This document shows, in pieces, positions 28,228 to 32,965 of a DNA stretch of 64,000 bases (position 1 is the first letter of the stretch; the number at the start of each line of letters is the position of its first letter). Source of the stretch: Cantharellus purpuraceus (taxonomy: Eukaryota > Basidiomycota > Agaricomycetes > Cantharellales > Hydnaceae); assembly GCA_025174535.1 (NCBI GenBank), contig JALBUN010000003.1:1882501-1946500 (forward strand), written 5' to 3'. The position numbers were made by a program, and so were the translations under genes. The notes under the pieces are model-generated. The model was given only the letters and a program-made list of their open reading frames with translations, did no database searches and was not told where the DNA came from.

Positions 28228-28360
28228 GCCGGGGCCATTCCAGTACTGGCAAGCTATGAAGAAGCCTTATGGGTTTCTTCTTACTGTCTTTATTCATTTA
28301 GCACTTTGCACATGAAGTGCAGAATGATTTGACATCAGTGGCCATGCCTGGCCACCAGTA

Positions 28361-28615
28361 CTACTGTTGAATGTAATTTGCAGTCTTTAGTTGACCAAAA
28401 TGGCCAACTACTTGGTGCACATGGTAGATTATTATCTCGGCCAGCCTCCTCCCCTTCAGAAACGCTGAGTGGGGTATACAGACAACATCATGCCTGTATA
28501 TATTTTTGGTCCATATTAGACCATCATGCACACTGAATTGTGCATGCTCTTTAGGTGCCCCCAGCACCTTAGAAAGGACAGTATCCTTTCTATATGTGCC
28601 TTGTACAATCTGCAC
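28361..28615 (-). pseudogene. HP integrase N-terminal zinc-binding region
   Basis: The minus strand reads VVCIPHSAFLKGRRLAEIII followed by HQVVGHFGQLKTANYIQQ, the H-x3-H-type start of the gypsy integrase (HH-CC) domain. The Cys pair, catalytic core and chromodomain are missing because the element is truncated at 28227. Hairpins in this part include GTGGCCATGCCTGGCCAC at about 28343. Confidence 0.7.
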
Positions 28616-28999
28616 AAGGTTGATCCCATGCTTGACATGGGATCACAATGGTGTTCCATCATCATCTGATGACATCACTCCAACATCCTCTATTTCTTTA
28701 GATGAATTAGAATCATCATTCAATGATTCTGTTTGAACACTGAGTGCTTTGGCTTCTGGCACTCTGTTTTCTTTTTTCTTGAGCAGTCACCTTCAGGTGA
28801 CTGCTGCTGTCCTGATCTCAATGAACCATTCTGTGGGGAGCAGTTCTCCTTCAGGGTTGGGACATACATCTGCATTTACATAGATGTAGTTGGGATGACT
28901 CTCTGTTGGGGAGTCATCAGCATAGTAGCACAACAGACAATCCACTACTTTGTTCTCTACCCTGTCTATATGCAGAGTAGTAAAGTTGAAATGGGATAA

Positions 29000-30370
29000 G
29001 AACTCCCACCACCTAATCTGTCTAGGAGACAGGTTCTTTTGGGTCTCGAAGTATTCGAGACCCTTGTGGTCGGTTAATAGGACAAACGTTCATCCTAGTA
29101 GCTTATCCTCCCATCTCATTAGGGCTTTGAGCACAACTATAGTCTTGTGCTTGTGGGTCTTATAGTGCTGTTGTGCAGCACTAAATTTCTTGGATAGGAA
29201 TCTGGCAGGCTGACAGGTCTGCCAATCTTTTCCTTGTCTGTAGACAGCTCCAACTCCAGTCTTGGAGCCATCAGTAATAACCCAAATAGTATCAGGGTTA
29301 TTGACATTGATGGGCTTTAATATTGGAGCCCTACATGCTAGGAGCTTAATGCTTTCAAAGCACATCTCCAGCAACAGCATCCATAAGAATGGATGATTAT
29401 TATGAGCACAACCCAATAATGGGGTTGTGTATGCAGTTATATCTGGCATATAGTGTGCCAGATACTGCACTAGTCTAAGGAAATGTTGGACTTTGTGGTA
29501 TGACCTAGGTCATCTCCACTCTTGTTTTCACTGCATTTTATCATCTGCATGCACACCTTGGTCATCTATTAGGTGACCAAGGCAATCCATACTTGTTGAG
29601 CATAGATCAATCTTATCCTTGCTCAGGAACATATGTGCTTTCCTGAGCTCAGTGAACACCATCTCTAGGTGGTGTTCATGCTCTCATATAGTACGAGAGC
29701 ACACAAATACATTGTCCAGATATACATGGACAAATCTTCTGATATATTCTCAGAAGATGGTGGTCATGAGCCACTGAAATGTCAAGGGGGCATTGCAGTC
29801 CCCTTGCTGCATGACTTGGTTGATGAATGTCCCCAAGATAGTCGCAAATGCTGTCTTAGGTATATCTGTTGGCCTGATGTGTATCTGTTCATATGCCTCA
29901 GACATATCAAGTTTAGATTGATATATACAGTGGGCAACATTGTGTCTAATGTTGTCCTGATTGGGGAAGGGCATTACATCCTTCATCATATTGTCATTCT
30001 GTTCACACAAGTCAAACACAGTGCAGAGCTTCCCATTTTTCTTGGGAATGCATAGCATTGGTACAGCCTGTTGGGCTGTAGCCAGTACCCACCAGCAGTG
30101 GTGTATCACAGAACTTTCTCTGAAAGTTCTGCTCAGTAGTGTTCTGAGCACTTAGGCAAGCGATAATGTATTTGCTTGTCAGGATCCACAAGATCAATCT
30201 CATGGTTAACTTCCCTAAATGGGGGAAGTTCTAAGGGTATGCTGCTGAATAGGTCAGCATACTTTTCTTTCCATTGATCTCTCAACTGAGGGATCTGATC
30301 AGCTGTGTAAGTGGTTGATCCTTCACAAGATGAAGCTATTTGCATTGTGCTCTTATTTGGATCTTCCATT
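29000..30370 (-). pseudogene. HP reverse transcriptase and RNase H
   Basis: Minus strand. RT begins near 30370 (DPDKQIHYRLPK), with PMLCIPKKNGKL (about 30050), KLDMSEAYEQI (about 29900) and VMQQGDCNAPLTF (about 29790). The active site is at about 29712-29730, where the usual YLDD reads YLDN. RNase H follows: QYLAHYMPDI, CFESIKLLACRAPIL, IWVITDGSKTGVGAVY and LTDHKGLEYF (to about 29030). The domain order is normal for gypsy, but stops interrupt it (for example near 29510 and 29535) and many Arg codons are changed to Cys or His. RT activity should be abolished by the Asp-to-Asn change alone. Confidence 0.82.
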
Positions 30371-30678
30371 GGGGGGTCCTTTACTGAGTCTAGTCCTTCT
30401 TTTGGGAAGGACTGTGTTGTGGGTAGCTCATGTTTAGAGTTACCCCCTTTGTGTCATTTATTCATGCCAATACTCCTTCTTTGTATTAAGTTTGTACCCC
30501 ATGACAGGGTATAAAGAGCATCAGTATTATGTTCTTCATTGATGGGGACTTCTTCAGTTCCCATTATGATTTGGCCTGGGCCATTGAAGTCCAGACATAT
30601 TCCTAGCTTTCATAGGAATGGGGTATCAAGTATTACATTGTAATCAATGTTGGTGGCATCGAAGTATTCTTCAATGTC

Positions 30679-30927
30679 TCAACTACCAAACTTTATGGTA
30701 GTGTGAGTACCATAATTTATGGTACTCCTGCTCCCAATGCATGCTAATTGCAGTGCAATGGGTTGCTCTAGTGTGAAGGTTTTCATACCTGTCATGCATG
30801 TGAATTCAGGGGAGATCATTATCCCCTCACTCCCACTGTCTAATAGACAGTGAGCTAGTGTTCCACCAATCTCCCAACACCCAGAGATTGTTTTATTATT
30901 TATGCGCAGCCTATTGGGTTGCACCAT
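30679..30927 (-). pseudogene. HP aspartic protease segment
   Basis: The minus strand is open for 82 codons and reads LAHCLLDSGSEGIMISPEF, matching the retroviral-type protease motif (DSG) found in gypsy polyproteins. The catalytic Asp is kept. It lies between the gag zinc knuckle (31341-31395) and RT, as expected. Confidence 0.75.
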
Positions 30928-31299
30928 TGACTTCTGTCAGCTCCTATGATTATGCATAGGTTTGGCCAATCTGTCAATGCTGACAGCAGCTATATGCAGC
31001 AGTCATGATTCCCTACTTGTCAGGAATCTTATTGCACTACAGAAATGCACTGCATAGGTGCATTTTAGTGGAATTCAATTATTGGGTCAAATTTATATCA
31101 CATTAGAGTGGTACATTGGTGTAGCCTCCTCCTTGGGGGCATTATCTTGGTCATCCCATTTGTATGGGGTGATCTCCTCATCAGCTACTTCTATAGCTGA
31201 TGTTTTTTCCTCTAGATGGTCCTTGGGATCATCCATCACTTCTTCATGTTCTCCCTCTATTGGGGAGAATCCATCTACATTGTCCTCCACTATGTGTGA

Positions 31300-32402
31300 G
31301 GACACATCCTTTCAGACCAAAGCCAACCTTATGTTGCCCTTTAGTTTGGGGCATCTGGGTCACATGTGACCTGTCTGGCCACATTTGTAGCACACAACAT
31401 TACTGGTAATGTTGTTCAATCGATCACTACTTGCATGTGCTGGTAGCTTTGATTGATAATTACCCTTAACAGAGTAATTGTTGGAATTGAACCTGGAGCC
31501 TCCACTACAGGGTTCCAGCCTTGGCACACTCGCTTGTCATGAGTGTGTATTGGGAGCCATATACACATATCCATGGGGCATGGGTTGACTCCCTGCATTC
31601 ATCATACCAGTAGTTCTATTGATTACTAGTCTATTGGTTGAGGAGGATGCATTAGTTGCATTCTCCAGGTGTCACATACCATGGTGGTATTGTGTCACTT
31701 CCTCTATCATTCAAGCAGTTTCATACAACTGCTTGATACTGCTAAACTCGGCATTGAAGCCATTCTTGAGGATGTCTTGTCTCAGAGGTTCACACATTGC
31801 GGTTACAAACCTCTTCCTGTACATGTATGCATCTGGCAGCATTATCATGTGGCCCACATACTTATCTGGATCATTCATTAATTTGTGAGCAGTCCTTTGA
31901 CCCTGTATTACAGAGTCAAATTTATTTGATGCATGATGATGCATCAGAGTGTGTAGGAATCTACACTGCAATTCTTGGATTGCAGTTTCCAGGGTCCAGT
32001 CTTGGACTGCCCTGTCATAGTGTTCTACATTTCTGTAGAACCATTCCTGGGCCTCACCTTTAAGGCAAGTGCCTAAAAAAATAGTTGAAACTTTTTACTT
32101 GATGGCCCTAGAAGGTTATTCATCTTCAGCCATTGTAGCGTGCCTGCTACAAAGATCTTGAACTCTTTGAGATCTGCACCTCCTGCATATTGCTCAGGAG
32201 GCAATACTTTAATACCCACCTTGGCAAGTACAGACTTCTCTGGGTCTGTGTCTCTGTTATTGACTATGGCTATTTGTACCATGCGAGTAATGCTGTTGAT
32301 AGGATCAATTGTATCCAATTGATCTGGTATGCCTTGACCTTCTAGGGTCAATGTCACTGATTGTTCCCTGTTATGGGGAACATCTTCTTGAGGTACCCAT
32401 TG
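31300..32402 (-). pseudogene. HP gag with CCHC zinc knuckle
   Basis: The minus strand reads VLPPEQYAGGADLKEFKIF and GTLQWLKMNNLLGP (about 32130-32220), then FLHTLMHHHASNKFDSVIQG and YRKRFVTAMCEPLRQDILK (31711-31971), a retrotransposon-gag fold region. The zinc knuckle CYKCGQTGHM-x-PRCPK lies at about 31341-31395, with a TGA stop inside (CpG-type change). The 5' part of gag lies beyond the solo LTR-H at 32403-32670. Confidence 0.75.
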
Positions 32403-32670
32403 TGTTAATGGATGTCTTAGTTCACACCATTGCACAGAACTCAACCAAGTGTATTGGTTGGGTGATGTGTTGTACAGTATGGTAGTGCCTAAGTTCTGTC
32501 TACTATAAGTGGACCCACACATGTACTGGGTCCACTGGCTTACATAATCACTATACATATACACCCTATGGGGGCATATATCTACCAAGAGGACAGCATT
32601 CCTTAAGGGAATACTGCATATATTAATTGTACTTATATGTTATAGTAAGTAAGTACCTTGGGTACTTACA
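32403..32670 (-). mobile_element. solo LTR-H (copy B) inside HP gag
   Basis: On the plus strand it starts TGTTAATGGATG and ends GGTACTTACA, 268 bases, flanked by perfect TSDs CATTG (32398-32402 and 32671-32675). It is the same family and orientation as the HP 5' LTR at 43292-43557, so HP relatives were still moving after this copy had inserted. Confidence 0.9.
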
Positions 32671-32965
32671 CATTGGGTATCTTGTTGTTCATGGTGGGTG
32701 TCTCCTGAAAGGCCTGCCGCTCGTACATGCTGATAACTGTTCAGTGCATGTCAGTTTAAGTTGACAGCCACATTGAGCTCTTGCTGGGGCCACTGCTTTC
32801 TAAACAGCTGGCCAAGCTCCTGCTCTGCATGTTTAGCCTTCTGTTTGAGGGCTAATCTGTGTTTATGAGAAGCCTCAACTTCTTGTTGTTTCCATAGCTC
32901 AATCTCTTGATTGAGCTCCTTTGCCATAGATTGAGGAGTTTCCTCCTCAATCTGGATCAGTAATC
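32671..32965 (-). pseudogene. HP gag, coiled-coil segment
   Basis: The minus strand reads IQIEEETPQSMAKELNQEIE and RLALKQKAKHAEQELGQ, a charged coiled coil of the gag N-terminal half. The same RLALK-x-KAKHA block recurs at about 63585-63610 in the element at the right edge, so it is a family feature. Confidence 0.65.

Follow-up and report, generated by a model that had tools for sequence, protein, structure and literature searches.

A Gypsy-type retrotransposon of Cantharellus purpuraceus tiled with short perfect hairpins

In a 64,000-nucleotide stretch of the genome of the fungus Cantharellus purpuraceus (the window: contig JALBUN010000003.1, positions 1,882,501 to 1,946,500, assembly GCA_025174535.1), we find a retrotransposon, here named HP and read on the minus strand, that is tiled with short perfect hairpins. 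Window positions 28228-32965, which include a nested solo long terminal repeat (LTR) at 32403-32670, hold 59 perfect stems of at least 7 bp with loops of 3-12 nt, where 50 dinucleotide shuffles give 3.1 ± 1.7 (maximum, 9). An earlier note, made from the sequence of this stretch alone, had counted 25 stems in 29041-31065 against about one expected, and had proposed shuffled sequence as a control; we count 30 there and 1.3 ± 1.2 in the same shuffles (maximum, 4), so that shuffled sequence falls far below the real hairpin density. All nine hairpins listed in that note are present, although three of its stem lengths were too short: the stem at 29041-29063 has 10 bp, 30706-30726 lies within an 11-bp stem at 30705-30727, and 30834-30852 has 9 bp.

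The tiling is a property of HP and not of its surroundings. When the whole window is divided into 2-kb bins (n = 32), the three covering 28001-34000 contain 22-28 stems each, and bin 42001-44000, which carries a second HP fragment, is a weak outlier with 9; the remaining 28 of the 32 bins contain 0-5. The comparison with other elements that the earlier note proposed gives 1.6 stems/kb for an ordinary Gypsy element at 36834-40656 and none for a Copia element at 44919-46460 (both identified by eye from their open reading frames [ORFs]), and 30 other Gypsy loci of the same genome have 0.6-1.2 stems/kb. Because 29 of those loci are 97.7-98.9% identical to the thirtieth, they amount to one family, and the control rests on this Gypsy family, the two window elements, and the remaining non-HP DNA. 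Over all sequence compared (loop 0-11), 1594 stems fall in 132.1 kb of HP-homologous DNA, a density of 12.1 per kb, and 218 in 219.5 kb of non-HP DNA (leaving aside a repeat that we call M), a density of 0.99 per kb; in these pooled figures overlapping loci are counted repeatedly, and about 100 kb of the non-HP DNA is the one Gypsy family. Only two bins outside the HP mask are dense, and both lie in positions 1-600 of locus L066, adjoining HP. The difference in stem density between HP and DNA elsewhere therefore speaks against a host-wide quirk of replication.

Other HP copies, which the earlier note had wished to see compared, share the pattern. A 2-kb HP piece has at least 49 matches in the 40.15-Mb, 50-contig assembly, including the window's own (a lower bound, as the best 40 of 213 candidates were scored, and some loci yield several pieces); the others are 84-93% identical, mostly 86-91%, and are dispersed over many contigs. 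All 30 loci compared from these matches, the window's included, are hairpin dense, with 9.0-16.5 stems/kb in the matched part (loop 0-12), and in 2025 bp aligned over the copies there are 51 hairpin centers, most of them common to several copies and a few present in just one. Since the 30 loci carry hairpins at shared positions together with different decay mutations, we ruled out a base-calling artifact.

HP is, by its domains and termini, a Ty3/Gypsy LTR retrotransposon, and probably a chromovirus-like one. The earlier assignment to Gypsy is upheld by matches to RT_RNaseH_2 (8e-14), RVT_1 (3e-7), and, in the longer copy L061, the integrase zinc domain (5e-8), as well as by the 5-bp target duplication around a solo LTR. 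Of the domains called recognizable in the earlier note, reverse transcriptase (RT) and RNase H are so, but protease (0.002) and gag (0.02) stay below the Pfam cut-offs. The domain order is RT, RNase H, integrase, with Integrase_H2C2 downstream of RNase H seen in L061, a copy that runs from LTR through leader, gag, pol, and integrase to a chromodomain-like end; the last of these, at the integrase C terminus (L061 7239-7478), matches Chromo weakly (E = 0.039, under the curated cut-off). L061 has a 5′ LTR; in the HP stretches compared, none of which is a complete copy, we found no 3′ LTR and identified no primer-binding site. We also considered and rejected a DIRS-like or other terminal-inverted-repeat element: what flanks HP is a 255-bp inverted repeat (27945-28199 with 32990-33237) built from two copies of the unrelated repeat M, which L061 and L062 carry elsewhere, and HP is therefore not an inverted-repeat element.

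The tiled parts comprise the LTR, leader, gag, protease, RT, RNase H, integrase, and 3′ region. Counted over the copies, with a pair accepted when formed in 20% or more of the copies (mean copy number, 1.8-20), there are 33.7 stems/kb in the LTR, 21.8 in the leader (which may partly code), 21.8 in the main coding part, 19.9 in the integrase C-terminal part, and 21.1 in the 3′ region; the corresponding values in L061 alone are 15.0, 13.1, 12.9, 12.8, and 21.1. The hairpins thus lie over the Gypsy coding region, as had been reported, but are not confined to it, the LTR being at least as dense.

The hairpins keep within narrow geometric limits. For this analysis, which covers 7214 bp, two positions were taken as paired when they are Watson-Crick in 20% or more of the copies that span them, and this gives 155 hairpins at loops of up to 11 nt and 164 at loops of up to 14 nt. 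Stems are 7-12 bp long, plus one of 14 bp, and the longest in any single copy has 15 bp. Stems of 5 and 6 bp hardly exceed the numbers expected from separations of 20-60 nt (152 against about 134, and 63 against about 54); the excess begins at 7 bp, amounts to about 32, 30, 25, 23, and 13 stems for lengths of 7, 8, 9, 10, and 11 bp, and is exhausted beyond 12 bp, bar the 14-bp stem. Each loop size from 0 to 11 nt is represented by 7-17 hairpins, without marked preference among them, and the number drops to 3 at 12 nt. Stem and loop lengths are negatively correlated (rho = −0.41), and the span of a hairpin is 22.9 ± 3.3 nt; re-pairing stems and loops gives a standard deviation of 4.4, and none of 5000 permutations is as narrow. 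Neighbors rarely overlap (20 of 157, versus 61 ± 5 at random), and from one center to the next the distance is 35.5 nt at the median and 45 nt on average, typically one hairpin per 30-45 nt. Extra stems of at least 6 bp occur in 27 of the 69 gaps of 18 nt or more, versus 11 ± 2.5 with columns shuffled, a control that ignores neighbor effects and a result in some tension with the weak 6-bp excess.

Perfection of the stems is all or none: immediately past their last pairs, complementarity is about what the background gives (0.25-0.39 versus 0.31). The closing pairs are oriented: at loops of 6-11 nt, C-G accounts for 0.36 and G-C for 0.10, with background values of 0.14 and 0.20, and at loops of 0-5 nt the closing pair is C-G in 0.16 and G-C in 0.11, with 0.37 and 0.09 at the next pair. 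This orientation suggests that real folding mattered. In L061 217-8000, the orientation with C 5′ and G 3′ spans about three inner pairs, and the outermost pairs lean the opposite way (G 5′, C 3′). Loops are A-rich, and we noticed no other loop motif, although no formal motif search was made.

Since both arms of a perfect inverted repeat place limits on the encoded protein, such repeats should be scarce in coding sequence. When synonymous codons were permuted within eight HP ORF pieces, a procedure that preserves both protein and codon usage, 3.2 ± 1.8 stems remained (maximum, 8 in 200 rounds) versus 35 in the real sequence; the hairpins are encoded through synonymous codon choice. Chance, base composition, or codon usage as the source of the hairpins has solely the A-rich composition in its favor, and is refuted by these counts, by the 59 stems against 3.1 in shuffles, and by the positions common to many copies, to the point that we give it practically no credence. 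The codon phase of the stems is biased against the most constraining register, with 20, 28, and 8 of the 56 in-frame stems in phases 1, 2, and 3, respectively (p = 0.004). Among stems of at least 6 bp in seven near-identical ordinary Gypsy loci, 28 of 45 are in phase 3, the opposite lean to HP. The phase names, and the reading of such a bias as protein constraint, are those of a study of hairworm mitochondria (PMC6649704). Residues match those of relatives about equally in 5′ arms (0.66), 3′ arms (0.72), loops (0.65), and linkers (0.68) of the RT and RNase H pieces.

RNA folding accepts G.U but not A.C. Interior single fixed mismatches comprise 10 G.T, 18 A.C, and 14 others by a strict definition, and 21, 39, and 46 by a loose one, with a background G.T/A.C ratio of 0.70; mismatch types at stem ends track the background. 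When the pairing rule is relaxed in single copies, admitting A.C yields more additional 9-bp stems than admitting G.T in all nine copies examined, A.C also being commoner by chance. HP pairing is thus Watson-Crick, without tolerance of G.U relative to A.C. One 700-nt stretch folds well below shuffled sequence both in sense (z = −9.6) and in antisense (z = −9.1; 20 shuffles each), and 27900-34300 contains no Rfam family at an E value of 0.1. Selection for a structured genomic RNA, one of two causes put forward in the earlier note, is disfavored in its simple form, with G.U no commoner than A.C and both strands folding equally.

The copies also record what has happened to the hairpins since insertion. 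Divergence between them is 41% at CpG columns and 4.1% at the others; at non-CpG columns, arms, loops, and linkers vary alike (0.038-0.045), and CpG-type paired sites decay independently in each arm. Because the arms decay like the linkers, with no upkeep, the hairpins predate the copies: they originated together in the active lineage, before insertion, and are now being lost. We also found 100 double Watson-Crick changes, but did not accept these as evidence of covariation, because the pairs mostly look like independent CpG to TpG/CpA changes and because two transitions always restore pairing. Eleven stems carry at least two copy-private changes; eight of these are TG/CA exchanges such as CpG decay leaves and three are transition pairs, which could be conversions or chance; one of these (in L015) changes both sides and keeps one pair. 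The other two are the closest approach to a conversion event and may be weak candidates for one: in L024 (L061 columns 5719-5744), two transitions in one arm complete a stem, and at window positions 30130-30150, two adjacent transitions in one arm complete a hairpin, one of the changes being common to four other copies.

This decay bears directly on the proposal that the host maintains the hairpins in the chromosome, through extrusion of hairpins or cruciforms and repair of one arm from the other. Arm conversion is considered for mitochondrial palindromes by the hairworm authors (PMC6649704). The inserted HP arms, however, decay as fast as the linkers, the CpG-like losses appear independent in each arm, and the other genome DNA compared remains at background stem density; chromosomal upkeep is already largely refuted by the independent decay of paired positions, and we regard it as very improbable.

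We tentatively favor, at somewhat less than even confidence, the view that the hairpins were made by foldback template switching in the active element and filtered by selection on its proteins. During reverse transcription, the end of the cDNA would fold back at a chance partial palindrome, copy its own other arm for about 7-11 nt, and then rejoin the template. Purifying selection on the proteins would have retained mainly conversions at synonymous positions, and the process would have ended for each copy once it sat in the chromosome as a methylated insert that no longer moved. Before its last burst of copying, HP had become a near-continuous row of perfect inverted repeats of about 23 nt with its proteins kept. 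Perfect stems, including RNA stems, are known from the literature to arise by template switching (PMC8794818), which is also offered as one possibility for the hairworm palindromes (PMC6649704). We favor it because of the Watson-Crick-only perfection of the stems, their abrupt ends, the symmetry of the strands, and the restriction, in the DNA compared, to one retroelement family; G.T not exceeding A.C is what is expected of Watson-Crick arms that were copied and later eroded by strand-symmetric transitions. The even spread of loop sizes up to 11 nt, the trade-off of stem and loop to a narrow span, the codon-phase bias, and the lack of upkeep in the chromosome also count in its favor.

Template switching, the other cause named in the earlier note, thus fits stems that are perfect and end abruptly, but several observations weigh against it. 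There is no clear switching event among the 11 stems with at least two private changes, no polarity between arms (5′ versus 3′ residue conservation, p = 0.63), and no rewritten arm singled out by codon usage. Coding DNA is nearly as stem dense as the other parts, and this evenness counts against foldback because protein constraint should thin random conversions. The orientation of the closing pairs (C-G 0.36, G-C 0.10) is not obviously predicted by foldback, and no DNA of relatives was found in viral or prokaryote contigs to serve as an outgroup.

Some of these points are better accommodated by the serious rival, selection for folding, which we rank below foldback copying and consider possible but doubtful. 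In that case, each hairpin of about 23 nt would have a job, such as packaging, shielding from small-RNA silencing or nucleases, or pacing reverse transcription, and from end to end of the element synonymous sites would be tuned so that stems reach 7 bp or more. The similar density in coding and other parts, the sharp 7-bp minimum, the few overlaps and the median spacing of 35.5 nt, the oriented C-G closing pairs with A-rich loops, and the strong folding of the 700-nt stretch all agree with this, as do arm amino acids that are not degraded and the two-sided, pair-keeping change in L015. However, G.U is not tolerated over A.C, loops of 0-2 nt (31 stems) are almost as common per size as those of 3-11 nt, and the sense and antisense strands fold alike; because G.U pairs are lacking, selection would have to act on DNA or on both strands. 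L015 aside, there is no compensatory change beyond independent transitions, chiefly at CpG, and no Rfam family. The arms are also uncoupled in the proteins of relatives (0.802 in the real data and 0.802 with arms permuted; 16 hairpins), a weak hint, from a test of little power, that the same hairpins are not kept there.

A further alternative is that HP was acquired horizontally, or recombined, from a replicon rich in palindromes, such as an organelle-like genome, and that the tiling reflects this earlier setting. HP is indeed far from the other Gypsy elements of the genome: among the best 150 of 587 candidates for an HP RNase H piece, 130 have 63-100% amino acid identity, and the next 20, belonging to other Gypsy elements, have 25-27%; moreover, the sole comparable pattern that we found in print is mitochondrial. 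Nevertheless, HP has the RT, RNase H, integrase zinc domain, LTR, and target duplication of an LTR element, and protein relatives of HP at about 60-80% identity (for RT, up to about 80%) are common in metagenomes. We think this origin highly unlikely.

The features of HP and of the related repeats in the window are collected in Table 1. The window's HP copy stops at about 28228, where L061 runs on, and its ORF piece containing the start of the integrase zinc-binding domain has no Pfam match of its own. The nested solo LTR is flanked by CAATG at 32398-32402 and 32671-32675, and the corresponding site in L061 is uninterrupted; in the genome, the HP LTR has at least 40 matches at 90-100% identity, including the window's (the best 40 of 435 candidates). 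Repeat M (32990-33553) has, by eye, short terminal inverted repeats resembling those of miniature inverted-repeat transposable elements, and adjoins or sits in the HP copies L061 and L062.

Table 1. HP and associated repeats in the window (stems are perfect and at least 7 bp long; values after domain names are E values)
Feature	Position	Strand	Details
Repeat M copy, truncated, inverted, abutting the broken integrase	27945-28199	.	
HP internal region, gag to truncated integrase	28228-32402	−	54 stems (loop 0-11), 12.9/kb
ORF piece, start of integrase zinc-binding domain	28361-28642	−	Homologous L061 pieces match Integrase_H2C2 (4.7e-8, 0.03)
RNase H, two ORF pieces (28793-29089, 29090-29509)	28793-29509	−	RT_RNaseH 1.1e-6; RT_RNaseH_2 8.3e-14
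Stretch compared over 30 copies	29041-31065	−	51 distinct hairpin centers, mostly common to copies
Reverse transcriptase ORF piece	29750-30151	−	RVT_1 3.1e-7; protein relatives up to ~80% identical
Protease-like ORF piece	30679-30936	−	Asp_protease_2 0.0022, RVP_2 0.0049, under Pfam cut-off
CCHC zinc-knuckle-like gag motif	31351-31392	−	By eye; in-frame TGA interrupts the motif
Gag capsid-like ORF piece, weak	31711-32094	−	Ty3_capsid 0.023, under cut-off
Solo HP LTR, TGT...ACA, 268 bp, nested in HP	32403-32670	−	4 stems
HP continuation 5′ of the nested LTR	32671-32968	−	L061 1396-1706 corresponds to 32968-32667
Repeat M, AT-rich, 564 bp, inserted in HP, not an HP terminus	32990-33553	.	Also in L061 (elsewhere) and L062
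Second HP LTR copy, inverted, truncated	33556-33788	+	
HP 5′ region, leader, perhaps start of gag	33789-34245	−	L061 947-1403; ORF 33957-34409
LTR and leader of a second, diverged HP copy	42829-43557	−	86% identical to L061; 9 stems, 12.4/kb

Larger inverted arrangements are also seen at some HP loci. In L066 and L068 (G000:C23:3339200-3343551), an HP fragment and an adjacent repeat belong to an inverted duplication of 2.1 kb whose halves are 99.9% identical and about 160 bp apart; it could be a recent foldback duplication or a chimera of assembly or reads. In L064, 457-bp inverted copies with 100% identity (1-457 and 7498-7954) flank one HP copy and match L061 6825-7280. Near 746203-751072 and 949751-953848 of contig G000:C5, HP LTRs lie in opposite orientation 3.6-4.3 kb apart, which suggests inverted arrangements of HP copies.

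Another interspersed repeat, partly tandem in the window (spacing of about 270 bp), occupies 34270-34519, 34543-34812, and 42081-42829; it contains an 8-9 bp hairpin and lies near HP in several loci. A long plus-strand ORF at 35099-36682 has tandem 30-bp repeats and a cysteine-rich stretch.

Like chromovirus-like Ty3/Gypsy elements, HP has a TG...CA LTR, a 5-bp target duplication, the order RT-RNase H-integrase, and, on a weak match, possibly a chromodomain-like C terminus; unlike them, it is tiled, the two LTR elements identified by eye in the window and the one Gypsy family having 0-1.6 stems/kb. The dispersed packaging signals and ordered genome structures of RNA viruses comprise many local hairpins, tolerate G.U pairs and mismatches, and may share a loop motif; HP resembles them in its many local hairpins and differs in lacking G.U tolerance. 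The earlier note knew of no described retroelement with this pattern, and we likewise found no description of a hairpin-tiled retrotransposon in the open-access literature searched, so that HP is, to our knowledge, a known kind of element with a seemingly undescribed property.

The nearest described case that we found is that of the palindromes in coding genes of hairworm (Nematomorpha) mitochondria (PMC6649704, PMC10380579). There, as in HP, many perfect inverted repeats lie in coding genes, both arms code for conserved residues, and there is no excess of imperfect repeats; the hairworm authors note this lack, and discuss template switching or arm conversion (PMC6649704). The bias against phase 3 is also common to the long palindromes of working hairworm genes (PMC6649704) and to HP (8 of 56). 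The two differ in location (an animal mitochondrial genome versus a nuclear retrotransposon on many contigs), in arm length (up to 284 bp versus 7-12 bp, the longest over the copies being 14), and in density (55 hairpins of more than 10 bp in 14 kb of Parachordodes versus about 155, mostly of 7-12 bp, in 7.2 kb of HP), and HP in addition has a narrow span and few overlaps. Template-switch mutations at quasipalindromes (PMC8794818; see also PMC7202029) likewise yield perfect Watson-Crick stems in one event; they are described for DNA replication and RNA genes, and a mobile element saturated with them was not found in the literature searched. Rickettsia palindromic elements, as described in PMC6649704, also place palindromes in reading frames, but those are insertions, whereas the hairpins of HP are unlike each other and fall where the protein is conserved.

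HP is thus an otherwise ordinary-looking LTR retrotransposon with a perfect inverted repeat about every 35-45 nt over the length compared, and a pattern resembling the hairworm oddity is not restricted to mitochondria. It is possible, though somewhat less likely than not, that the HP lineage turns almost all of its sequence, 23 nt by 23 nt, into perfect palindromes while keeping its proteins, through either a foldback-prone reverse transcriptase or selection on single-stranded DNA. If so, its genome would carry a continuous hairpin code along with its protein code, by a mode of mobile-element sequence evolution that we have not found described. If reverse transcription made the hairpins, nature would have left in them a strong record of template switching within one strand, and their geometry (stems of at least 7 bp, loops of up to 11 nt, a span of about 23 nt) would measure that switching directly; if selection made them, the DNA or RNA of this retroelement would have a new function that needs dense local folding.

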